From: Lichtheimia corymbifera B2541
Taxonomy: Eukaryota > Mucoromycota > Mucoromycetes > Mucorales > Lichtheimiaceae
Direction of reading: 5' to 3'
NCBI GenBank assembly: GCA_000697475.1
Contig: JNEU01001021.1
Location: 1-64,000, forward strand
DNA: 64,000 nucleotides
Shown here: positions 1 to 36,650 of the stretch, piece after piece
Position numbering within the stretch: position 1 is the first letter of the stretch
How the letters are laid out: each line of letters opens with the position of its first letter
Translations under genes and position numbers: made by a program
The notes under the pieces: generated by a model
Told to the model about the DNA's origin: nothing
Databases searched by the model: none
Seen by the model: only the letters and a program-made list of their open reading frames with translations

Positions 1-244
1 TCTGTGGAACGGCTTATCACTAAGACACTACATGTGCTGCAATGACCCACTCACCGCACACACACGCACATCACCAAATAAGAGTTGCTTTGCTTATTCC
101 ATATCGGTTTATATGTTGCTTTTATTTACCTGCAACGTTACGTTACGCTTGGAAGTGTGTTGAAAGATGGGTTTCATTTTTTGGATATTTGAAGGTGTAA
201 CGCATGAGCATGTATATAGTGTAACATATCATTTGCTTGCTAGA

Positions 245-820
245 TGGCCTCCCTTTGACACGCCATTGCACTTTTATCACCTTTATTCATGTAAAACGAT
301 TAACGAAATTACATTCTCAACCATCCATCGCTATTGATTATCGCTATATTCTTCAAATGAAAGCGATTTATTATCAGTAGGGAAAGGGGAGTGAGCAAAG
401 ACTGTAAATCTAATGCGTCATTGTGATGCGAGAAAAAGGATCCTTCCTTTGAGAATCGTTGGGGTAGAGTGGGGGAGGGTTGCAAAAGATAAAAGTAATC
501 TAATGCGTCATTGTGATGATGGTAGAAAAAAGAGGTTTCCTTTGACAACATGAAAAAGAAAACGCCCTCGTATTATGAGACATCCACCTGACATGTGATG
601 CAGCTGCCTTTCGGTGATCCCCTTTTTCTTGACACACCCATGCACTTCCATCAAATTGATCCATGTAATGCGGTTAACGAAATATCATTGAGAATAATCC
701 ACCTTCGCTGGTTACTGCCACGTTCTTCAATTGAGAGCGACCATTTATTATTAGGGGAAGGCTCAGCTAACAACGAGCGTAATTTGATACATCATTATGA
801 CGTGAGTTTTTTTTTTGGGG
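245..820. repeat. Diverged direct repeats upstream of the Fanzor gene
   Basis: Two diverged copies of a roughly 150-bp segment lie at about 250-397 and 620-765. They share, in the same order, a TTTGACACGCC/TTGACACACCC start, TGCACTT, ATTCATGTAAAACGATTAACGAAAT / ATCCATGTAATGCGGTTAACGAAAT-like cores, TTCTTCAA, and TTTATTAT followed by a GGGGA-rich end. A shorter motif, AATCTAATGCGTCATTGTG, occurs at 407 and 497 and in weaker form near 777. Alignment is by eye. The block could be a promoter-proximal duplication or the degenerate 5' end of a mobile element. Confidence 0.55.
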
Positions 821-903
821 GCTCCATACAAAGGGCTATATGGGCGCATATGTAGCATCATTTTCATTTTCATAGTACATTTTCTTTTTCAATCTTTATC
901 CTT

Positions 904-3900
904 ATGATAACACGTGAAACTATCGAACATGCAATTGCTTCCATGGTTCATGAACGAGCCAAAAACTCGTTACGCACTATTTTATCGCGACGGAATTTAC
1001 AAGCGAACGACATTACTGACGAACATCTTGCGCAAGCCAAGTCCTCATCTACAATTGACACAGATTGTCAAAACACAGTCAACGCACTATCTAAGCGTGA
1101 TCGAGCTCCACGTCATTTATACACCCATATCGACAATGTCCTTGGTGTCAATGAAGGAACAACGAGCAACAGTATCAACAAAGACGGACAGCTAAAGAGC
1201 AATATCTTCGACTGGATCGCAAGCTTGCAGATTGCTGAGATGTTCCGAGACGAGATTAATCGACTTACGCTGGATATGATCCACATGGACAGAGTACAAA
1301 GTGCCCATCGGGCCATTACGGTTCCATTCAAGAGCGTGTTAAAAGGTAGTAGCAAATTGTGATTGCTTATACTATGTCTCATTAATATGTGTCAGATGCC
1401 GATGATATCTCTGGAATCGTGACAACATTGGAGGCGACAGCCAAAATATGTACCGATCTTTATCATGACATGTGCAAAGTGATCCATTTGAACATGATCT
1501 CATATGCAACTATGAACAATCCTGAGTCGACCAAGATCAACGTCCAGCAGCTTCATTTGAACATCGACGACAACAGCATCCTCCATCAACGATTCTTTTC
1601 TTCTAATCCTCTTGTATCAGACGATACCAAATTGATGTTCAGCCTCCAACACGTGCAATACATATACACAAATTATTTCGGGCAAGGATCACGGGGCTCA
1701 ACTCATCATAGATACCCTATATGGAAACAAGTCATGGTAAGAAATGGTCATGTCTACTCAACAGGATGAATGTTTATTGATTTGAAACGTAGGATAATAA
1801 TCCAGGCTCATATACAATCCATGTATCAACCGCCACCGCTACCGATGTCATACAACGGTTGTCTACAAATATCGAAAACATGTATGCTAGCGCGAATACT
1901 ACAAGGAAGTTGCTGCGTTCGGTGGTTGGTCTACTTCTCAAGCTTCAACTTGGTGATAGTTCGGATCATACGGAGCTTTCTGCTGATGATATCTATCCTG
2001 TTCACCGCGCAATGGATGACATGTATCCTGTTTACCAAGCAATGGATGATATGTATCCTTTTTATCCGTCGACGAATAACGATTACCATGTGTATCATCA
2101 GCCTGACGATGTTTACCCCGTTTATCAAGTGCGTGATGACGAAGTCGATACAACTGCCGACATGTTCGCCGATTTGCAAGTGGAAGCTACAGACGTCGAC
2201 AAGGTTGAAACAAAGAAACCGTCCAGGAAATCAAGACGCAACGCTGTTCGCAGTAGAATCTGGGCAGCCAAAAAGGAACTGGAGAAGTTAAAGAATGCAA
2301 AGACACCAACCGCCTCACAAATCAAGAAGAAATCAGCAGCCGAAGACCGATTAGCGAGATTAGAAACTGAAATGCGTGAATTGCAGGACGAAGTAAGTTT
2401 CAAGACATGATATGATCGGTCGTATTTGTAACATATAATTCGTATTAGGCTAAGGAGGCGACAATGACTCAGCCCATCGCCAAGGAAGAGAGGACTCTAA
2501 CCATTGCCAAGGATGAGAAGACCAAGAAACAAGGAAGAAGCCGTGAGCAGACAAAAAAGAGAAACCATATCACTGGCTTATTGGTGAAGATATGCCTCCA
2601 AGAGGAAGATATTCAAGAAGACCAGGTCAACATGATATGGGAGCAACCGGAAGATCTGACCAGACAAGAAATTGATGCTATCATAGTCATATACAACAAT
2701 ATTCGACCTTTCGTACGTCATATCTATCCATCCAAGTGTTCAATCGCATCACAAGTGCCATTTCAAGTGTTGGCGAATGCCATCCTTAAGTCGGCGAAAG
2801 ATACATCAAATATGCGAGCGATCGTGCCACATTCTTCTTCTGGTACCGTGCATGCTTTGCATATTACAGCGGGATCTCTCTACGAGAATATCAAAGACAA
2901 TCTCCCACAAGACCGACAAGGTATCAACAGCACGAAAACGGCGATGTCGCGCCCAGATGACATGTTTTCATTGGTGTTTTCCACTGAAAAGATCAAGCAA
3001 AAATGTGATGCATACAAGTTGGAGTGGATCTACCGTATTGTCATGGTATCCAACGGGTTGGCTCGCTTAATAGGCAAGGTCCGTGACACATCCAAGCTTG
3101 CCCCGGAATACAAAGCAGCGAAGTTTGTTCCAACAACAATGGAGGGATCAAAACAACATCTTGAATCGCACCTCGAAGAGCTCTCAAGTAAACGTCGACA
3201 AATGATTGAATCAGCAGACGCATCAAAAGCAGAATTACAGTCGAAAAAGGATGTTCTTCAACGCATTCGACATGAGCCATCAAACGATTACCAGATGATC
3301 CGTGATATGAAGCAAGAGTGCCATGATCTACAATTCAAGCTTGTTGATACGGATGAAAATCTCCGGATTAACAAGAAAGAGATTGGAATATGTAAAAGGG
3401 TTAGTAGAAACGTCAAGTATATTTTGGAGATGTGCTTATATGTGCAAATAGTCATTGAATTCCAAAGCGGCTAAGAAGGATGGACCGGAGATGGATAAAA
3501 TCGTTTTATCATCTGAAAATAGAACCTGTCTGGCACCTGCTCACCTGGTGGACCTATCTCAGCTACGAAGTGAAGGACAGCAATGGGATTCGCAGGTGTA
3601 GATTACGGCTTTCATACGCTCGCTACAATTGTACCAATGACAGAGATACAAGCAAAGTATCACCTTGACTTATTGACGTCCGATCAACCACCTGAACATT
3701 TCACTTGTTTACCCAAAGCCCTCACACTGGAATCAGAAACCATCTTTACCTTCACGGGTGAACGAGAAAGAGCACGCAAGCTTGAGTACAAAAAGAAGCA
3801 CGTAAGTACAGTCATTGAAAACATTTATGCTTTGTGTACTAATTTCCCTGTAGACTGATGATGGAAAGGAGGTTTTGGAACGGGAGCAATCATTGTCACA

Positions 3901-4546
3901 ATATTCATTCAGAACGGCATCGAATAAGAATGAGGTGCACAAAGCTTATGAGGTAAGAATTACCTTCTACGCCCATAGCATCAAATAATACTTACACATC
4001 CCAAAGATCAACAATGAACACCGGAAGCGGATTAGAGATATTTACAACAGTCCATTCATGAAACGATCAAGTCGTCGACGGGAATTCCAAGAGAAAAAAT
4101 GGAAGGATCGGCTTTTAGCCAGAGAACGCAAAACCATTAAGAAGACATTGGAGAACACATTACCCAAAGGACAAAAATGGACAACGCCGCCGATCTACAT
4201 GATAGGTCATGCAGGAATGGGGTTCGGGTCCCGCATCAAGGGTTTCCGACGATATGGTGGAAAGTGGATGCGGAAAACCCATGCGAGATATTCACCAGTT
4301 GCCATAGTAAACGAGTATCGTACTTCACAGGTGTGCGGATACTGTGGCTGTCAGGTTGTTCGTCCGCTCAGCAACAACAAAAAGCGTTCAAATGGTGCCT
4401 GCCAATGCATAAACCCGCGGTGTATCTCTTTCAAAAACAGGCATGCCACCAATGGACGTGATCAAATGGCGGCAGCGAACATTTTGGTAAAAGGATTGGC
4501 ACGAGTTGAGAATATTAAGATTCCACCCTTGGAACTTAGTCTTTAG
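904..4546 (+). CDS. Fanzor (eukaryotic TnpB-family RNA-guided nuclease homologue), frame-disrupted
   Basis: Exons by splice consensus and phase: 904-1345, 1396-1736, 1793-2392, 2449-3399, 3452 to about 3590, about 3591-3801, 3854-3952, 4007-4546; all introns are 50-56 nt. The product is about 1,100 residues. The C-terminal third is a RuvC/zinc-ribbon nuclease. RuvC-I is GVDYGFHTLAT (Asp near residue 827). A Fanzor-typical SRIKGFRRYGGKW block and the shifted catalytic Glu in AIVNEYRTSQ (near 1030) follow. A zinc ribbon (CGYCG ... CQCINPRC) and RuvC-III NGRDQMAAANIL complete it. The N-terminal 780 residues hold acidic YPVY repeats (about 325-379) and two lysine/glutamate-rich coiled coils. TnpB/Fanzor proteins are known to cut DNA guided by an omega RNA encoded beside the gene; activity here is inferred. 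Exon 5 and the RuvC-I exon are in different frames and meet at 3574-3597. Either one base is missing there, or an alternative 189-nt intron (3392-3580) is used. Many introns argue for long residence in a eukaryote. Confidence 0.85.
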
Positions 4547-4550
4547 GTAA

Positions 4551-4570
4551 CTTGTTATATATATAACAAG
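4551..4570. other. Perfect 20-bp palindrome directly after the Fanzor stop codon
   Basis: CTTGTTATAT followed by ATATAACAAG forms a perfect palindrome beginning four bases after the TAG stop. In TnpB/Fanzor loci the guide (omega) RNA normally overlaps or follows the 3' end of the gene. This hairpin could therefore be part of that RNA, a 3'-end processing signal, or chance AT-rich symmetry. The palindrome is seen directly; its role is inferred. Confidence 0.5.
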
Positions 4571-5850
4571 CAAAAGAATGATAATCATAGCTAACCCGTC
4601 ACTCTTTTGGATTTAATATGCATACAGTCTACGAACAACCAATGTCTTGATCATCACCACAGTATTTCCTTGCGACGATCTCCATGACTTTACCATGCTT
4701 TGTCAACCATTTGGTACAACAGCAGTGCTTGTATAATCATTCACGGATCCTCTCTAAATCTCTCCGTGTTTTTACTCATGGTCACTCTCTTTCAAATGCA
4801 TTCCTCTCTCAAGGCGACCCACACGTGATACCTTCTCATTCACGAACATTTAATGAAAGCTCGAGTATCAATCATTGTCATTAGTTACTCTATCATTTAT
4901 CCATTGTCGAATCATATAATCATCATTGTATCATCCGTTTATTGTCATTTCTTGCAACAAAACAATATTACCACATGTACCACCCATTGATGACTAGTGC
5001 CTTAAAAGGATAGAAGTTGATATGGAAGCTAAAGCAGAGATCGATGTGGTAACTGGCTGGCTTCATGCAAGGAGCGTTTCATTGGACCTTTTTTGGTCAT
5101 ACATCTTCTCATCAATTAATTTTCGTAGTACTGCTTACATTTCCCCATCGTTTATTAGGCAAGGGGAAGAAGTATCTCTGTTTGGGAACGTTTCTTCTTC
5201 ACGCTGACGCTCTTGCCTTTTCAAGGAATCCTTCTCGATATATGTGGAAATTATAGCCTGTGTACACGTTTGCTATAGCAGCAAAATTGTCAATAATGGG
5301 TGGGGATAGAGGATGAAAGCACATAAAGGAACAACGCCATATTGAATATTTCCATCAGACAAAAAAGCTCTCTAACCAAATAACCCCTCAACGCTATGCA
5401 TCCTCCCATTTTATCTATTGAAACTTAACATCAATAGTATTATTGCGTATGTCACAATCAGCATGAGGATGAAGGTTTATACTGCTGTAATTGTATCGAC
5501 TTCTGTATTCTACATGTCCAAATGAATCCCCTCTATGAATACACCATGATCCATCCAATGATAGTCTTCACTCTTTCTCCCAATTGTTCGCTTTGTCGAT
5601 GGTGTCTCTACGCGAAACCACAAATCGATGACTGGATATCCTCTCCGATTTTCCCTGCCTCATCCTCATCATTGTCATGAACACTTTTCCTAACCCCGAA
5701 CACCGTTCCTCTCTCTCTCTTTTCCACTTCAGCTGATAATAAATCTTGATGATTTCCAATTATAATCCGTGTATCTATGACTTGGGATAACGGGGATGTG
5801 GTGTGCTAACTAATGCCAACAGGGTTATATACAAATGATCGGGAATAAGC
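4571..5850. other. Intergenic, no gene seen
   Basis: This stretch has only short chance reading frames in all frames, AT-rich sequence and no recognisable RNA gene. It separates the Fanzor locus from decayed minus-strand coding sequence. No terminal inverted repeat that would close a mobile element around the Fanzor gene could be recognised by eye. Confidence 0.4.
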
Positions 5851-5879
5851 TCGGATAATTCTCCTTCACGTGGATAAGA

Positions 5880-7500
5880 ACACAAGCACAGCCTTACCTT
5901 TGTAAACATTTTCAGACGCAATTAACCTTCCGTCGACCTTGGTATCCTTTGAAAGTCGACTTATTTCAGATAATTGCATCCCAGCAGGGTCCACGTGTTC
6001 ACACTTACCATCGGATTGCTTGATATATTTGATTCATAGGCCGTCTTTGGCATTGCTGATCCACACCCAGAATTTTTTCTTGAATAAGACCATGAATGTT
6101 GTTTCCTTTAAAGTAGAAGATATTAATGCCTTGCTGAATCATCAAAATCTTGTGGTCTTCCTTACCCTCATGATTATGCTTGCAGTTGAATCCATATTGT
6201 ACCACTTAACTGAATAGTGTGCACGCTCATCGCCTATGCAATCGAGTCTATAAGCCGTAAAACCCTTGATCGTAACATGTATTGGGATTGAGTCCGTGTT
6301 GGCGTTGCTTCGTTTGACGTACAAATCTTCATTTGATCCTTGTCGATAAATGACCTTGGGTACTCATTGCTGTATCGAAACGTAGTCTTAAGCGGTAGGA
6401 CTTTTGAAAGGCTTGTAGCTGAAGGCATGTTGATCAAGTATGTATTGTTGCTATGTGCTTTGATTCGAGTGTTGTATATGATCCGTGGATGATTGTAAGA
6501 CATTTTTGCACAAGCACATGATCCGCCGGCCTTCGTTTTATCCACATGACATGATCCGCCCTTCCTTCTGATGACTTGGCAAGTAACCACAACCGACATC
6601 CCATGATCCGATCGTGTTATCGAATACTCCAAGGTACTGAGGGTGTATAAATCCATTGAATGAAACCAGATTTGAATAAACGTTGCTGCATGCGATTACA
6701 AAGGATGTGTGTGATAGCTGACATGAGGAAGCAGTTGAATGGGTAAGGATGCAAGTTTTGGTGGACAATTGATGAACACGATAGGTGGAATCTGGTCCAT
6801 ATATGCGATTGAGAGATAAGAAAACCGAAACGTGATAAGAATCCGGGGCTGCTATTGACTTTGTTGATCATTGCTGGTCTTCCTCATTCAATCTTATAAT
6901 TGTTGCCCTGTATCCGGGTTTCATATTCGGTTGACTTGGTCATGCACATGTTTGATCCCCTCGATATCCAATCCGGAAGTAGTTTTTCTCATCCTTGTTG
7001 CCTTACATTGACCCAGTAGCCGTTTCTAATCCATCACCGCAAATCGTCGTCAGGTATCCATGCAATCATTTGTCGATGCTAGCTGTTTTGGCGCTTGTCT
7101 CGATTTCAATAACGTAAAATGATCCCATGATGTAGCTGGATATAGCATCAATGTCGATGAAGTTGTCGAAAAACTCCTTCTTTGTCATCTTCTGGATACG
7201 CTGTGATCAAATACCATCCCGAACTCGTGTAATGCATCCAGTGTTGATAAAGTGCCATGATCACAAATGAAGGTAACGTGTCGTGCAGCTTCACTACATT
7301 CAATCATTAGCCCTTCTTTGCTAACACATCAGCGTATCCTTTTTGTTACCTGAATACCAAACATCGAAAACGAATATACGTCGCTGTCGCGTCCCAACTA
7401 TATTCGAAATATCGATCTGCGTCATATGACGTGAGTTGATTGCCACTATCGTGTGATCTCATTTTTACCTTGGTAAATGGTTCGTATCCGTTATAAAACC
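5880..7500 (-). pseudogene. Fragments of a decayed, unidentified minus-strand gene
   Basis: Short reading frames on the minus strand look protein-like rather than random but are broken by stops. At about 7060-7190 one frame reads EFFDNFIDIDAISSYIMG followed by a stop. At 6234-6656 a 140-codon frame includes PLKTTFRYSNEYPRSF. Several minus-strand GTAAG donor-like sites lie between them, which fits old exons. I do not recognise a family and give no function. The alternative is that these are chance frames in AT-rich DNA. Confidence 0.3.
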
Positions 7501-12972: not shown

Positions 12973-14737
12973 CTATTCTGGGCGTTTTTCCATGAATGCT
13001 CGTACAGCTTCTTGGTCAGCAAAGTCATCATCCGCCGCTTCCCAACCGAGAACACTATTCTTGACCGATCCCTTGGCTTTAGTATCATCAATGATGCTAG
13101 ATCCTGTAGACTTATGTTTCTTTTTGGCAGGGACTTTGCTGTGCTCTCTGGAAGTGACTTCTTTGCCAGGTGTCGACATTGTGACAGGATTCTTTGTGCG
13201 GTTATCCACATGAGTTGTCTCCGATTTCTTGACAGATCTTGTGGACATTGTTTTTGGTACAGTGGGTTGATGTTCTGAACGAGATGTCTGCTTCTGTGAT
13301 ACTTTGGTTGTTGTTTTCACTGGTAAGGTTGACTTTACCGGTGATTGGGGAGCTTTAGGTGATACTTTGGTTGTTGTTTTCACTGGTAAGGTTGACTTTA
13401 CCGGTGATTGGGAAGCTTTAGGTGATGCTTTAGTCGGTGTTGTTTTTGGTCGGGATGGCGTTGTGGGGACGATGTTGTCAGCTGCAGTTAATACTGCTCG
13501 TTGTTGTAAAGGCTGGGATGGCGTTGTGGGGACGATGTTGTCAGCTGCAGTTAATACTGCTCGTTGTTGTAAAGGCTGGGATGGCGTTGTGGGGACGATG
13601 TTGTCAGCTGCAGTTAATACTGCTCGTTGTTGTAAAGGCTGGGATGGCGTTGTGGGGACGATGTTGTCAGCTGCAGTTAATACTGCTCGTTGTTGTAAAG
13701 GCTGGGATGGCGTTGTGGGGACGATGTTGTCAGCTGCAGTTAATACTGCTCGTTGTTGTAAAGGCTGGGATGGCGTTGTGGGGACGATGTTGTCAGCTGC
13801 AGTTAATACTGCTCGTTGTTGTAAAGGCTGGGATGGCGTTGTGGGGACGATGTTGTCAGCTGCAGTTAATACTGCTCGTTGTTGTAAAGGCTGGGATGGC
13901 GTTGTGGGGACGATGTTGTCAGCTGCAGTTAATACTGCTCGTTGTTGTAAAGGCTGGGATGGCGTTGTGGGGACGATGTTGTCAGCTGCAGTTAATACTG
14001 CTCGTTGTTGTAAAGGTTGGATGGTGGTGGGGGTATTATCGGTTGTAGCTGGTACTGTTCGCGACTGCGGCGATTGGATGGTTGTGGATGATGCCCGTTG
14101 TGATGAAGGTGATGGTAGTGGATTTGGTTGGGTGCCCTGGATTCTGAAGTAGTTTCCAAATGATGAAAAGCATTGGTTGGCTGCATTCTCTTTTGCTTTG
14201 GTCATTGCCTATATGGTACGACGAGTGTTGCATTAGCGTGTCGTGAAGATGGGTAATATGATCATCCACTTACCGTTTGGATTGCAATGTTCTTTGATCC
14301 TGCACCTTCGACAGCAGCGCTACCATACGCCTAGTATTCGACTTAATGTTATATCTAATTCGCCATCTATATATTCGTTTACCTCGTGCGTGCAGTCCTT
14401 TACAGTGATCGACATCTTCATGGTGTACATGCTGTCGAATCGGTTGTTCTTTTTCTCGAGCTGTTCTAATGAGTGGTATGATCAATATTTCAACAATGAA
14501 AGTAACTCACATAGTTTTCCTTGATACTATCGACTTTTGCTGACCATTGTAAGCTACCAAAGACTTCATCTGCTTTCCTTTTCAAGACATCGTAAGGTAT
14601 ACTCTGGAATGTTTTCCCTACAGTTCACTATTAAGAAACGAGTAATGCCAAACGAAATGAAGGCAAGTACCTTTCCATTCAAAGCTTTCGATTTCGTGTG
14701 TGTCAGCATAGCGATCAAGGAGTTCGAAATTGACCAT
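12973..14737 (-). CDS. Rad52/Rad22-like recombination protein with repeat-rich tail
   Basis: Exons on the minus strand: 14737-14671, 14617-14511, 14460-14383, 14330-14274, 14208-12973; 514 residues. All junctions are GT-AG and keep frame. Start chosen: CACAATGG context, just before MVNFELLDRYAD. Residues of about 20-128 match the Rad52 DNA-binding core in order. A helix DVLKRKADEVFGSLQWSAKV corresponds to the family's LANEMFGxNGW segment. Beta strands follow: RFDSMYTMKMSITVKDCTHE, then AYGSAAVEG. The final helix AMTKAKENAANQCFSSFGNYF corresponds to ARKEAVTDGLKRALxxFGN. Rad52 anneals single-stranded DNA and loads recombinase during break repair; this role is inferred from family. Residues of about 166-355 are nine 21-residue repeats, then two SPVKSTLPVKTTTKVS repeats and a basic/acidic C-terminus. 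The tail is Pro/Thr/Lys-rich and probably disordered. Rad59-like paralogues cannot be excluded. Confidence 0.75.
13452..14020 (-). repeat. Coding minisatellite, nine 63-bp units
   Basis: Nine tandem 63-bp units inside the last exon of the Rad52-like gene look identical base for base by eye. Each encodes 21 residues beginning QPLQQRAVL and ending IVPTTPS. Because 63 is a multiple of three and the units lack stops, long antisense frames are also open across the array; these are shadows. The lack of differences between units points to recent expansion or homogenisation. Confidence 0.95.
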
Positions 14738-15179
14738 TGTGAAAGAAAAGAAGGAGTAAAGGATCAACAACAAAACATCACGTACGCGCATGAATCTTTT
14801 AACATAGGCCCCTCTCCGCGACACTATCAATTACGATACCATCAATTTCTTTATTTTGATGCCTGCAACCCTTTTTCCTTGTCCTTGTCCTTTCTCTATG
14901 ATCATATCATCAAACTATTCACCAGCGTGGGATGGCGACGTCTTTTCTCGTGTTACGTGTTTATCAAATGTCGTATGTTACGGGAGTCACGTGAGCACGT
15001 GCCATGATATTCGGTTTCTCTGTTAGCATAGGTCAATGTCTCTCCTTGTATATTTATCCTTTGGTTTCTCTCTCGATTCCAGTAATATGTTCAAGCCGTC
15101 GTTCGTAGTATAATAAAGAATCATCATATTATCTTGCAGTAAAGATCTCTATCACTTATTGACCCCCACACTCTTCTTC

Positions 15180-16950
15180 TACTATTGCATGAGCATGGAA
15201 TCTATGATGTACCAATGACATGCCGTCCTTATCTCCTGCTCCGGGAGTCAGTACATTCATGCATGAAGTATAGTCCTCCTTACATCTGGCTATGTGGGTC
15301 GAGCATGATGACACACCGCTCTCATACATGCTACTGTATGCATAAACAACAGTTTTTTTTTCTACGAAGGGCTATGTGGGTCCGTGTGTGCGTAGCAAAA
15401 TTGCCATTTCTCTTTTTTTCGCCTCGTTAATCGAGATACGTTGGTACATGTGCTGACCTGCACACACTTTCCTTTTCCTCGTGCTACATGAGCTACGGAT
15501 CGATGCATAGATAATAACGCGCCACCTTGTATCATAGCCCTGTGTCAATGTTCATGCATAAACAATAGCCTTTTTTTCCTGAACGGTCATACGGGCGAGA
15601 TGTAGATGTAGACTTTTCCTATTTTGCTTTCGCTGTTCGCGAATAGCTTTTGTTTACATACCGACCCCCAATAGTTCCTTTTTTTTTGTGCGTGAGCCTG
15701 GAATCCATGACTTAACAATGACGCGCCACCCCTATCTCCTATGTACTATGTGAACAATGCATTCATGCGTCAAGTATAGATTTTTTCTTACACCTGGTGT
15801 TGTTGGCTGAGATTCAGACAATGACACGGTGTTATTGTTCTTGCTATCGGGTACTCACTTTCCTTTTGCCTTAGTCAATGAGCTATGGAACCATGCATCA
15901 GAAATGATACGCCCCATACCCCATATGGCAACAATAGCTTGTGTTTCTACGCGGGTCATATGGGTCAAGATGTAGATTTCGACATATTTTGTTTACACAC
16001 TTAACCACCCCCCCCAACCACTCCTTTTTTTGTGCATGCGTCTAATATCCACGAGCTATGTAACAATGGTACGCCACTCTTAATCTTCTACTCTGTGAAT
16101 CAATGCATTCCTTACACCTGGCTATCTGGGCCGAGAATCATACAATGACACGCTGTTTTTTTTTTGGTTGTTGTTCAGGTACTCGCATCCCTTTTCCCAT
16201 GGTCAATGAGCCAAAAATCCATGGGCCTAGATGTAGCTGTAAACATTTACTTTTTTTTCTCTCGCTACTGGGATAATCTTTGTTTATGTGTTGACCCCCC
16301 ACAATCCTTTTTCCCGAGCATGAACCTGGAATCCATGATTCAACAATGACATACCACCCTTATCTCGTAGCTCCGTAAACCAATGGATTCATGCATCAGC
16401 AATAGTGTTTCTTGTTGGGATTCCGTGTTTGTGGTGGGGGGAGATTGACCCCTAGCATTTTAACACGGCGTGTTTTTTTTTTCTTGGCATCCTTTGATTC
16501 ATGCAGTGACCTTTACACATTTCCGTAACGCCTTGACACCAGTCGTTTATGGATCAACAATGACACATCCTCGCTTGCCTTCTTCTCACAAAGCAATGGT
16601 GGATCATCAATAACGTTTTCTTCCTCCAACTTGTAGTCATTGGAAGCACTTTCCTCTTGTCGTCACTCGTGACAATATGAATTTGTGTATTCCCTATTGC
16701 TTATCTCCTCCTCCTAAACCAATGAGGGACCAACAATGACATTTTTTTCTGTTTGTACACGCGACCATGTAGGTCGAGGCATACTTTTCGACTCATGTTG
16801 TCTCCCGCCTGTCACTCGTGATGCTCTTGAATTCATGCATTCATCCCCAACAAATATTATTTTTTACCCTTATCTTGTGCTTCTGCGAGGGATCCGATAG
16901 GTGCGATAAAGTTGACTCATTGTTTTTTTTTTCTGTACCCTCTGATGCTG
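15180..16950. repeat. Degenerate direct repeats
   Basis: A motif of the form TGAGC-TGGAATCCATGA-TCAACAATGACACGCCACC-CTATCTC recurs near 15189, 15488, 15694, 15890, 16037 and 16318. It is often followed by ATTCATGCATCAA-AATAG and CTTACACCTGGCTATGTGGG, then a poly-T run. Spacing is irregular, at about 150-300 bp. Shorter echoes (ATGGATCAACAATGACA) continue to about 16740. Units are strongly diverged, so this is an old non-coding array. No reading frame of note. Confidence 0.6.
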
Positions 16951-17029
16951 TGAGGATTGATGCATGAATGACGGAATGGTTTTTCTGGCGCCTTCCGCGG
17001 GACCACCGTGCTCATCGAGAAATGATATA

Positions 17030-18722
17030 TAATATTGCAAACGCTCCCTATCTCACGCTCCTTTAACTTCCATCTCTATTCTGGCCACACACACACACAC
17101 ACACAAATCGTCTTCGGGGGTTCGTATTGCTGGCTCATTCAAGTTATGCTTCTTCCATGTACTCATTGCAACCATGTCATTGTAGCTGGCCACCCTTATC
17201 AAGCGTCTTCCCGCCATCTCTGGCCCTTGTGCCTTCTGTTGCTGCTCTCAAGTCCCAAGTCCCAATGCCATTAGCTCTTGTCACTCGCCTCCGCAACTTC
17301 CCCTTTCCCACTCTTATCCACGTAAGCTTATCGTGTTGGTCTCATGTGTCTACTTGGTTATGCTGACATCTCATGTTAGGAGGGATAAAACCTCGGCACA
17401 GCCACCACCACCGAAGCCCTCCCCTAACCACGGAGAAGCAACGGATGTAGGGTATACCCCTGCGTTCCCTCGGGGTATGTAATGGTATTTGGCTATTGTG
17501 ATCTTTCATTGTTGATACTAACAACATTCTTTTACTATGGTTCTTGTTCCGTGATCTCTTTGACCTTCGTTTCCTTTTACTTTTGTGGATTACTTCATCT
17601 TATCAACATTCAATTATTTTAATAATAAAGATAGTTACACGCTAATGATGACATGTGTTGCATGCGGACACTATAACATGCATTTTCTTCTCTCTCTCGT
17701 TACCGGAGATCAAGCAAATAGGTTGTTTGATTTGTCGGGGACAAGGTGCGTGAGTGTGGATGAGAAACAATTAGCTCATACTACGTAATCATCTCCTGCA
17801 AAGAACAAGAGAGAAAGAGCGGTGCGGGGGGAAATATAATCATCACCAGCACACTACTATGATGGCATTATTCCGCGCTCGGCCCCCTGTTCCCTTGCCC
17901 CATTTCCTCTTAGCGCTACAGTAACCTATACCACACATACACCTGCTCAGCTTTATCTGTGGGTCGGTTCGATCCGCGTTATTGGGTCCAACAGGATCAT
18001 TCCTAATCTTTTCCATATTGACACCTGCTGTTGTTCACGGTTAAATGGTTCCACCTTTAAAATGTAGCATTCTCTCATGTGTGCTACATGATAAGTCTCA
18101 TCTAGGAAATGTAACGTGGCAGGTTTGCATATTTGTGTGTTGGAGTTGCAAGCGTTGGCTGAGTGATTGATTTGTCAGATCAGCCTCATCCCCTGGTAAT
18201 GAGATAACAGGTCAGCAGTAGCAAACCGGAGTTCGCGCCGAATATCTTGCAGCATCTCACACAAAAAACCCCATGGAATAAATGATCCAAGAACGGTAAC
18301 AATCACACACGTAAAAAGTCTTGGCGATGTGATACCATTTCCACGTATTCGAAACAATTCAGATCAAAAAATTGTGTGTGTATGTGTGTGTGTATTTTCC
18401 ATTCTGTGTGCTATGTACAAAGGGGTGTGTGTGTGTGTGCGTGTGTGTCAGAGTAGCTGGCCAGCTAGCAGAGGGAATAATTCGTTCATATATACGGAGA
18501 ACAACATAAGAAGAAATGATACAATCCAGCAAAGAAAAAAAAAAGGAAAACGAAACAAGGTGAAAACAACGGGGCGAGCATAAAAGGGTTGATGTGCGTA
18601 TGATGAAAAGGACAAAGGAAAGGATATGGGAAGATGCTTGTGAATGTGTGTGTGTATATATGAGAAGAGATCAAATGATGCAAAAAGTGTTGTATGTGTG
18701 TGTGTGTGGTGGTGGGTCGTGC
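17030..18722. other. Intergenic with TG/CA microsatellites
   Basis: No gene is seen. CA repeats lie at about 17086-17105 and TG repeats at about 18373-18394 and 18424-18448. The 3' part is purine-rich and probably holds the 3' untranslated region of the neighbouring minus-strand zinc-finger gene. Confidence 0.45.
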
Positions 18723-32999: not shown

Positions 33000-34665
33000 T
33001 TACAGAGAATGGGTGAACAAAACGATAAAGCAAGTAACGAATAGTAGCAAATGAGGAGAGAACTGGAGAATGGATTGGGTTGCCAAAGATTCCGAGTTGT
33101 TTGACGAGGAAGAAGAGGATGACGATGATGTTGATGAACCGCCACCACCACCATTACCATCATTGCCGTTGCCTGTGTTACTGTTGCCACTGCCAGAGAC
33201 GCCATTCACACTTCCTTGGACACCATTAGCAGCTGCAATACCCACTCGATTTTGGCCCATGTCAAATACAAGGTAAGCACTACGAAGCATGGAATCACCC
33301 ACAAGTAACATGCTGGATCCAACGCCGCTGCTGCCACTGGAGCTGCCAAGAGGAGCAATGCCAAGCATACAAGCGGATGCGTTTTGAGCTGAATTCGTAT
33401 CGAGAGGAATGACCAATGCTGAAGCTGGGACACTGAGCACCACGGGTGAACTTGAAGGTTCTGACGTTTGGGACATGTGCAGTTCGACATTGGCAGACGA
33501 TTGAGCCACGGAGCAATCCACCAGCAAGACACCCGATTGACGATCCAATTTGAAGCCATCGGAGCCACCCGCGATGCGACTGGCGACATCAAGTGCCATG
33601 CGGGTAGGAAGATAGGTTAATGTAGTGCCAGTATCAAGAATAAAAGCTGCTGCTGAGGATTGGGAGGATGTCTGTCGTTTTGTGTGCTGTCCTCTGAGCT
33701 GCTGCATAAATCCAAAATCGTCATCACCGCTACCAAAGATGGAGGAGGATTGTCGACCCAGGTTATATGTTTTATCATTGTCACCAGGTGTATTCTTGAC
33801 GGCAATGGCTTGACCATAGACCATCCAATAATAATAACCATTGCTGGAGGGGGATAAGCTTGACGTAAGTTGGGCTACAGGTAGGTAATGCAAATCGCCG
33901 GTATATTTGCTCTGGTCCACGCCACCAAATATAATCTCACCCGCCCATCCTTGTTGATCACCACGATTCATATACACTGAAAACACTGGGTCTTGAATGA
34001 TCTTATTCTTGGCCAAGTTGAATACAAATGGATTGTAATTCTTTTCATTTTGATTCTGTGCAGCCGTCAATTGTGGATATCCAAGTCCCAAAATCCCATT
34101 GGCCTTTACGGTGGACTGATTGTTGGTGGCTGTCAGGATGCTTTCCGTGGTCGTGGCAAGTCCAAATTGCTGATTGGGAACACTGGCACCTGCTACAGTC
34201 ACTGTATCAGTCGCATAAGTGCCATTCACACTACCTATGCCGTATTGGATCCCAAATCGCTCATGATGATCATTAAACGTCGATGACTCGGACTCTTTGA
34301 ATCCACCAAATGGACATTCACGACGAGGACATTCACTGGATGGCACCCATAAATCCGCACTATATATATATTTTAGTTTCATATTGTTATGTATCCCCAT
34401 TTACATACCTTCCAGTGTCAAGTGTCACTGTAAAGTTTTGTGGTGGTGTGCCAATTCCAACAGATACCAAGTACTGTGATCCTTGGTCGTTGTACAATGG
34501 CGTGCTAAAAGGATCCCTCTTGTCAAATTGCTGTACTAAGGGTGCTGCTGATTTACGCATCAAGGGTAGGCGCAATAATGGTGGTGGTGGATCGACATCA
34601 TTGTGGATCGCCGTAGCTGTGGTAGCAGCAATTAAACCCAATGAAAGTATGGAAGGGATCATCAT
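33000..34665 (-). CDS. Secreted GPI-anchored aspartic protease (pepsin family A1)
   Basis: Exons 34665-34409 and 34359-33000; 538 residues; 49-nt intron inside the first active-site motif. It has a signal peptide (MMIPSILSLGLIAATTATA), then a short pro-segment ending in FDKRD, a likely Kex2-type site. The first catalytic motif is TLDTGSADLWVPS, the second ILDTGTTLTYLP. A Ser/Asn/Gly-rich stalk and a C-terminal hydrophobic tail (LLLFVTCFIVLF) fit GPI anchoring, as in yapsins. Expected to cleave peptides at the cell surface or wall. An insertion of about 30 residues (NLGRQSSSIFGSGDDDFG, then QLRGQHTKRQTSSQ) precedes the second aspartate; it contains KR and could be a processing loop, as in yapsins. 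It is followed upstream by a paralogue. Confidence 0.9.
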
Positions 34666-34927
34666 TATCGTATGTATGTACACGCAACAACAAAGAAAAA
34701 AGACGAAAGAAAATATTTGTTAAAACAAGCACATACATGCAAACAAGATATCAAATGTTAGAGAAATGGGGCCCACCTGACTGAAACCGAAACCACCGAG
34801 ATCTGCAAAATATGCCGAGACATATGAAGAAACCGCAGTAAATGCCACATACAATGTGAATAATGTAGTATAGTAATACACTTTATGAGTACTGATACAT
34901 GCTGTGTCACTGTTACTAGAGAGAGAT

Positions 34928-34930
<3 letters not shown>

Positions 34931-34969
<39 letters not shown>
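34931..34969. repeat. GA microsatellite
   Basis: Uninterrupted GA dinucleotide repeat of about 39 bases, preceded by a shorter AG run. It lies in the 350-bp gap between the two aspartic protease genes. Confidence 0.95.
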
Positions 34970-34971
<2 letters not shown>

Positions 34972-35017
34972 AATCGTGTATGAGTGAGAGGAAGAAAGGG
35001 AAGGTGCGTGGTGTTCA

Positions 35018-36650
35018 TTATTGAAGAAGCAAGGCTGCCATTATGGATGCTGTAACGGTACCCAATGCCACCATATTGGATGAGAAACCAGAAGCTGCGC
35101 TTTCATCTTGATGATCCATTGAAATGATTTTGCCGTGAATGTCATCATCACCATCATTGTTGCCAGGTTGAGCAGTGGCAGATGGATTGGCATCAGTTGG
35201 ATTGGCTGAAGAAGATGCATTGTTGCTACTAGCAGTGGGAGCAGCAGCGGCATCGGCAGCAGAGCCAGAGGTGTGAATAGCGGGTGCGAGGCTGACAGTA
35301 TTCTTTTCCATATTGTAAACAGCGTACATTGAACGTAATGATGCTTCACCGATGATCCATGTCTCGCCGTCGGTGAGGCCCGTTCCAGAAACTGTGATAC
35401 CAAACATGCATGATTTTGCTGTATCAAGATAATCGGTGTCGATGGGAATGACAAGTTGCGAAACAGGTGTGCTGATAACGACAGGTTGATCTACCTTGTT
35501 GCTAGTGGAGGTGCTGATCTCAAAATTGACCGTTTTATCTTTTTGTTTGGCAATGCTACAATCGACACGGTAGACGCTGTTGGTTGCATCAAATGCATAT
35601 TTGCCAGCTCCTGCAACAGCCTTCACAATGCCGTCAGCATACTTTTTAGGGACCATGGTCAATGTGGTGCCGGTGTCAAGAATGAATCCTGCATTGGATG
35701 GTAATGCGACTTCATAGCCACTCGCCTTGATGCCTTGACCTGGCACGGTCCAATATAAATAGGTACCCGATGACGATCCCTTTTTGCCGCTGCCGACATT
35801 AGGTTTCACAAGATAGCCCGACGTATCATAATCAACCACTGGTACGGCTTGCAACGCTCCCTTGTATTTGGTCTTGTCTTCACCACCAAACATGATTTCA
35901 CCCGTAAGGCCATAGGCAAACATCTCATTCAGGTAAATGGAAAATACTGGATCTTGAAGTGTCTTTGCAAGGTTAAAAACAAAAGGAGTATCATCCTTCA
36001 CGCCACGTACGGTGTTCAAACCTGGGTATCCAAGACCCATAATGCCATTGGATTGCTCTCCACTGTTGACCATGCCGAGAATATCCTTGGTCGAAGATAC
36101 AAGAGCCACCTTTTGCTTGTCAACCTTGGCATTGCCAACAGTAACAGTATCAATGCCATAGACACCTTTGGCTTGACCAATGCCGTATTCAATTGAAAAT
36201 GGGTCCGTAAGCTTTTGATATGTAGAGGAACGGCTTGCATCGAATCGTTCGTAGGGGCATTGTGTAGGTGAACAACCTGTTGATGGAATCCACAATTCGG
36301 CGCTGTTGTTGTTGTTGTTGCAATAAAAGTCAATTCTCCATTATGACCGTTTTCATTGTTATTGTTGTGTGTGTGTACCTGCCAGTATCCAGAGTCAAAT
36401 TAAACTTTTGAGCGGGTGTACCAACGCCGATCTCGACCATGTATTCACGTCCAACAGCGTTATACAAGGCTGTTTTATCTGCTCGCTTTTCTAGCATGCC
36501 ACGCTTGAGATGAGCCAATTGTCCATTCTCGTTTCGAACAAGTGGTAAACGGATGACATTGTTGTTCTTTTCAGTAACCGGAAGGACAGCTGCTGCATCG
36601 GCACCCAAAAAGACACCCAGTGTTGCAAGTGCAATGCAAGACAAACGCAT
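35018..36650 (-). CDS. Second secreted GPI-anchored aspartic protease (A1)
   Basis: Exons 36650-36379 and 36302-35018; 518 residues. The intron again splits the Ser codon of the first active-site motif (LDTGSAELWIPS), the same position as in the neighbour, so the two are tandem duplicates. It has a signal peptide MRLSCIALATLGVFLGADAA, LEKR Kex2-like site before the mature start, and second motif FILDTGTTLTMVP. The tail has a Ser/Ala/Pro/Asn-rich stalk, acidic NDGDDDIHG and hydrophobic MVALGTVTASIMAALLLQ, fitting GPI anchoring. The yapsin-type insertion before the second aspartate is shorter than in the neighbour, suggesting specialised processing or substrate range. Confidence 0.92.

Follow-up and report, generated by a model that had tools for sequence, protein, structure and literature searches.

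A likely Fanzor-type nuclease gene of a distinct clade with very large members, interrupted by a frame break before RuvC-I, in Lichtheimia corymbifera

The window analyzed here comprises the first 64,000 nt of contig C330 of Lichtheimia corymbifera B2541, and the genome searched amounts to 34.98 Mb in 432 contigs. Labels beginning with P denote public-database proteins, and those beginning with L and C denote loci and contigs of the window's own genome. A split gene runs on the plus strand from an ATG at position 904 to a stop codon ending at 4546, with seven exons and six GT-AG introns of 50–56 nt (Table 1). This is likely a Fanzor-type (TnpB-superfamily) RuvC nuclease gene that belongs to a distinct clade, in which the two members readable at full length are very large (~1,107 and 1165 amino acids, aa).

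A paralogue on the minus strand of contig C317 is fully open: its introns are 43–58 nt long, its spliced frame encodes 1165 aa, and 393 of its 1087 residue pairs aligned with the window gene are identical (36%). The phase of all six introns is the same in both genes; five positions agree exactly and the first lies within one aligned residue. Nothing supports the gene model more strongly than these shared phases and positions. With the break masked, the window protein measures ~1,107 residues, ~820 of which precede RuvC-I (778 from exons 1–4); the initial annotation had put this N-terminal part at roughly 780 residues and had called the gene large beside its compact relatives, and both statements agree with our measurements. 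It had also counted seven introns. The gene is indeed intron-rich, but C317 supports six introns, the supposed remaining one being better read as a frame break in exon 5. Exon 4 is 65% identical to P0015, a protein of another public contig, and an alignment search with this exon found two proteins, one of them the window's own. In a Pfam scan covering N-terminal exons, none of those scanned gave a match over the cut-off, the nearest being Nsp1_C with exon 4 of C317 (19.9 bits vs. 24.1). Inspection by eye pointed to a possible degenerate counterpart of the WED TDG motif in exon 4 (VSNG here, TNHG in C317). Right after the stop codon there is an AT-rich perfect 20-nt palindrome (CTTGTTATATATATAACAAG, 4551–4570).

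The catalytic half of the protein displays the motifs GVDYGFHT, the glutamate of NEYRTSQ, a four-cysteine ribbon and NGRDQMAAANI, all of which had been reported initially and were confirmed, with order and spacing as in the family. The Fanzor/TnpB motif of 2013 is given in PMC3627910 as D-X(125,275)-[TS][TS]XX-[C4 ribbon]-X(5,50)-RD, where C4 stands for the four cysteines. In the window gene 204 residues separate D from TS, the ribbon reads CxxC...CxxxxC, and 11 residues lead to RD; note that the D of RuvC-I lies beyond the frame break. Translated in six frames, the 64-kb window contains the TS-C4-RD motif once, at this gene, and in 50,000 shuffles of the last 285 residues the ribbon motif appeared once and the ribbon motif plus the glutamate never. 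The passages of PMC10711439 on the Fanzor fingerprint name DPG, near-exclusive to Fanzors, together with a displaced glutamate, and sizes up to ~800 aa. The RuvC-II glutamate of the window gene stands six residues ahead of the first CxxC (E-YRTSQV-C), as in Fanzors, but RuvC-I reads DYG in the window and C317, not DPG, which leaves half of the fingerprint present; DPG was found in the relatives L024 (C362), L029 (C326) and P0004. Of the rearranged catalytic site proposed initially, the displaced glutamate stands, and the SRIKG...GGKW block lies outside the published fingerprint passages and marks the gene's own clade. Both proteins also exceed the ~600–800 aa of Fanzor1, most of which have 600–700 aa according to the part of PMC11423790 that deals with size.

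In exon 5 the upstream frame is open to a TAG at 3599–3601 and the frame that holds RuvC-I is open from just after a TGA at 3571–3573, the two being out of register. The same stretch of C317 is one continuous frame, whose first part ends at 4882 and whose RuvC part starts at 4881, with no gap. We listed 24 splice solutions (donors from 3300 on; GT-AG or GC-AG) with lengths of 111–294 nt, each of which deletes most or all of a 44-residue segment upstream of the break that is 54% identical to C317 and coding there; a seventh intron is disfavored for this reason. The sequence is best read as carrying a frame break just before RuvC-I, whether genuine or assembly-derived. A long extra or replaced intron that splices around the break to yield a shorter working protein, close to the initial view, has several frame-opening options at its disposal, e.g., 3392–3580 (189 nt) and 3470–3580 (111 nt, GC donor), yet such introns would be longer than those of this gene and of C317, and most or all of the conserved segment would be lost; we consider this quite improbable. 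A programmed frameshift was rejected, no slippery heptamer being visible by eye at 3574–3598. With its frame broken right ahead of RuvC-I, the window copy as read probably cannot make the full enzyme. It is possible, if somewhat doubtful, that the break is an assembly error and that the gene is intact and encodes a full enzyme of ~1,107 residues, as would fit the open state of all other exons, the six canonical splice sites, the retained active-site motifs and the relative of exon 4 found elsewhere; the break site, however, has no long homopolymer.

Kinship was assessed with a query profile of five C-termini from the window's genome. Searched against PDB, it placed PpFz1 (E 5.7e-7) and then SpuFz1 (7.1e-7) at the top; without the DPG relatives, SpuFz1 was still first (E 0.0074) and PpFz1 dropped to rank 5. 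In Foldseek, ranks 1–6 of 89 were all PpFz1 or SpuFz1, with PpFz1 as the top, albeit weak, match, and the fold comparison listed other Cas12 families at similar Z. Fanzor1 comes first in PDB by profile and fold, only modestly above Cas12 proteins and weakly in the fold part. The Pfam family PF07282 (TNB ribbon) scored 19.8 bits on exon 7, under its cut-off of 26.3, as compared to 28.9 for the DPG relative L024, and the window gene was not among the five matches of this family in the genome at E 0.001. The Fanzor/TnpB placement of the initial annotation is thus upheld as RuvC/TNB kinship by the PDB profile, and by the weak fold ranking, but not at the level of the PF07282 cut-off. Exon 7 as the sole query of a protein search retrieved nothing but itself, and viral contigs searched for relatives yielded 40 pattern matches, 0 of them confirmed.

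The host of PpFz1, Parasitella parasitica, is mucoralean. The glutamate ahead of the ribbon, the four cysteines and RD of this Fanzor1 (PDB 9CF0-9CF3) align with the window; in SpuFz1, the Fanzor1 of Spizellomyces punctatus (PDB 8GKH) with a catalytic triad reported as D383/E541/D606 (PMC10432273), the glutamate and RD do so with the window clade. PpFz1 is described with a RuvC insertion domain (FRI; PMC11423790) and the SpuFz1 chain has ~600 residues, whereas the window clade has a GSxIKGFxRxGG block, DYG and ~1,100–1,165 aa. Complete SpuFz1 genes are described as lying between 30-nt inverted repeats (PMC10432273); none was recognized at the window gene. In its account of related fungi, PMC3627910 counts 4 Fanzor1 families in Rhizopus, 3 in Phycomyces and 10 in Mucor (ROr, PBl, MCi); these are Fanzor1-type genes in transposable elements, with a 6-kb shared 3' region in MCi-2. 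Fanzors in mucoralean-type fungi are already known. Among the literature matches listed, with subscription papers mostly outside the search, none was plainly on the present clade, and no paper joined Fanzor with Lichtheimia or TnpB with Mucoromycota.

To delimit the clade we used an alignment, A4, of eight rows: the window, C317, C106 and P0005–P0009, which are fragments. P0010, P0011 and P0012 had been dropped beforehand, as had P0002–P0004 and P0013, which are of the outgroup kind. The block GxGxGSxIKGFxRxGGxW was invariant in all eight rows, the R after S being T in C317 and C106. Window, C317, C106 and all but one of the five outside rows retain the glutamate, the four cysteines and RD; P0007 has RN in place of RD, and the RuvC-I aspartate could be read for just two members, the window and C317. 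The clade motif is also present in P0010 and P0012 (Helicostylum pulchrum) and in P0011, which lack the glutamate and part of the ribbon. In the tree the eight members formed a clade supported at 99/100, deeper forks were unsupported (49/63), and the Cas12f, C363 and P0013 rows sat on long branches. Comparison by hhalign gave E 1.4e-15 for the window clade vs. a set of P0004, P0003, P0002 and L022, and E 1.6e-4 vs. a mixed set (P0013 with DPG, L027 with DIG, L028 with DFG, and L026); DYG therefore probably arose inside a DPG-related group. Compared by eye, L022, an open reading frame (ORF) on C415, almost matches P0003, which is recorded as a protein of L. corymbifera JMRC:FSU:9682. Two TnpB-like ORFs, L027:3155-4582 (C364) and L028:3540-4841 (C281), depart from the DPG fingerprint, with a displaced glutamate and D-I-G and D-F-G, respectively; TDG is also present upstream in L028.

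Searched with the C-terminal exon, the genome gave nine places with an E of 1 or below. C106 and C264 share 99.7% identity over their first 3.8 kb and may represent a single locus that was assembled twice. A relic copy with a stop lies on C314. The copy on C396 is a 5' half that reaches to exon 4 or slightly into it; its exon 1 carries a 23-nt deletion, and its ratio of nonsynonymous to synonymous substitution rates (dN/dS) vs. C317 is ~0.42. For exon 7 of C317 vs. C106, dN was 0.022 and dS 0.236, a low ratio to be read with the caveat that the divergence of this pair is mosaic (introns 0/96, exon 6 0/90, exon 7 35/567, 3' flank 3/99). The window vs. C317 gave no dN/dS value because synonymous sites are saturated. 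The contig begins within a dispersed repeat; all seven other repeat copies that reach the end of the window's part continue with shared sequence, and in the window copy the Fanzor locus follows instead. On C317 and C106 it is the 3' side of the gene that the repeat joins, 137 and 103 nt beyond the stop, respectively. Contigs ending in this repeat may reflect assembly limits. No terminal inverted repeat or target-site duplication was recognized in window 1–7000, the contig beginning at position 1, and window DNA 4200–5500 had no other match at the sensitivity of the search. A subtelomeric site is unsupported, since an exact TTAGGG x3 is absent from the assembly. As judged from these sequences, the genes look less like a conserved host gene than like a decaying family that is mobile or has been duplicated. 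The initial description of the gene as domesticated-looking loses its support because the gene adjoins a dispersed repeat and its kin include the truncated copy with the 23-nt deletion and the relic. Further pieces of the repeat were seen in the window at 16383–17635 (~90–95% identity to the distal part of the repeat, whose proximal part is at 1–816) and, more diverged (~75%), at 15154–15823 and 16251–16411. On C317, ~110 bp upstream of the paralogue start codon, 368 bp (L018:7813-8180) are ~80% identical to their own reverse complement, a possible foldback element.

By homology to SpuFz1 and PpFz1, a working protein of this clade would bind an omega/re-RNA that its own element makes at the 3' end; the RNA-loaded protein would cut matching double-stranded DNA through a D-E-D RuvC site with two metal ions, and cutting would help this element to persist. 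RNA guidance, double-stranded DNA cutting and mobile-element status are features that we infer. In a search for the guide RNA, two 3' regions folded no better than shuffles, and Rfam gave 0 matches in the window. The low divergence of the 3' flank between C317 and C106 was dropped as a guide-RNA signal because the divergence of this pair is mosaic, as after gene conversion.

Two other accounts of the clade have to be weighed against a Fanzor-type nuclease. Descent from TnpBs that combine D-hydrophobic-G with a displaced glutamate, not from the DPG Fanzor lineage, would suit the DYG of the window and C317, and a separate displaced-glutamate clade of this kind is reported in PMC10711439, in the part concerned with such proteins. 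Yet hhalign ties the window clade more to the DPG-related set than to the mixed one, and Fanzor1 tops both profile searches of PDB; the deep forks of the tree lack support, and we regard such a descent as unlikely. The clade could also have become a DNA-binding or structural derivative that is no longer a guided nuclease, as its strong divergence, its very long extra N-terminal parts, the loss of the RuvC-III aspartate in P0007 and the missing glutamate of P0010–P0012 might suggest. We give this little credence, given the retention of the glutamate, the four cysteines and RD in most rows of A4 and the low exon-7 dN/dS, with the caveat of mosaic divergence. The Fanzor-type reading is hence the one we favor. 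More tentatively, the genes may form an undescribed giant Fanzor-like clade of Mucor-order fungi with its own GxGxGSxIKGFxRxGGxW block and D-Y-G, the ROr, PBl and MCi families having been compared by description only.

Fanzors are eukaryotic RNA-guided nucleases of interest to genome engineers. If the clade is active, the Fanzor lineage would extend beyond the published DPG fingerprint and the 600–800-aa range, and partners or another mode of guide-RNA use could come with the long N-terminal and coiled-coil-like parts. Genes like that of the window could escape surveys that select by DPG, Pfam cut-offs or length. The open C317 paralogue makes function directly testable.

Table 1. Features of the window gene, the adjoining repeat and the places found with the C-terminal exon.
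Feature	Position	Strand	Remarks
Dispersed repeat, part adjoining gene	1..816	+	contig starts inside repeat; 29 matching stretches genome-wide, including itself
Exon 1	904..1345	+	147 aa, ATG at 904; open frame, aligns to C317 exon 1
Intron 1	1346..1395	+	50 nt, GT-AG; phase 1 here and in C317; at most 1 aligned residue from C317 site
Exon 2	1396..1736	+	39% identity to C317 across 113 aa
Intron 2	1737..1792	+	56 nt, GT-AG; phase and position as in C317
Exon 3	1793..2392	+	charged, linker-like; three 30-nt coding repeats at 1985-2074
Intron 3	2393..2448	+	56 nt, GT-AG; phase and position as in C317
Exon 4	2449..3399	+	conserved domain, then charged stretch, coiled-coil-like by eye; 31% identity to C317, 291 aa
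Intron 4	3400..3451	+	52 nt, GT-AG; phase and position as in C317
Exon 5	3452..3801	+	pre-RuvC segment, then frame break, then RuvC-I
Overlap of two reading frames, holds frame break	3574..3598	+	from frame listing; continuous in C317
RuvC-I GVDYGFHT	3595..3618	+	D codon 3601-3603; identical in C317
Intron 5	3802..3853	+	52 nt, GT-AG; phase and position as in C317
Exon 6	3854..3952	+	open frame; shared with C317
Intron 6	3953..4006	+	54 nt, GT-AG; phase and position as in C317
Exon 7	4007..4546	+	RuvC-II/III with zinc ribbon, stop TAG; 49% identity to C317
Clade motif GHAGMGFGSRIKGFRRYGGKW	4205..4267	+	GxGxGSxIKGFxRxGGxW, 8/8 rows of A4
NEYRTSQ, displaced glutamate	4310..4330	+	E codon 4313-4315; aligned to SpuFz1 LLDEYKTSSVC and PpFz1 LIDEFRTSSFC
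Four-cysteine ribbon CxxC ... CxxxxC	4334..4423	+	four Cys invariant in 8/8 rows of A4
RuvC-III NGRDQMAAANI	4451..4483	+	RD aligned to NRD of SpuFz1 and PpFz1
C-terminal exon places	window, C317, C106, C264, C314, C415, C419, C362, C326		last four more distant; C326 at E 0.23

Elsewhere in the window, six of the eight other ORFs scanned match ordinary families, e.g., proteases, a kinase and a mitochondrial carrier. A minus-strand open frame of 411 aa contains tandem, near-identical 63-bp units at 13296–14051, which read SQPLQQRAVLTAADNIVPTTP; this frame had no Pfam match at E 1e-5. Two adjacent aspartyl protease genes (PF00026) on the minus strand at 33000–36340 are likely a tandem pair.
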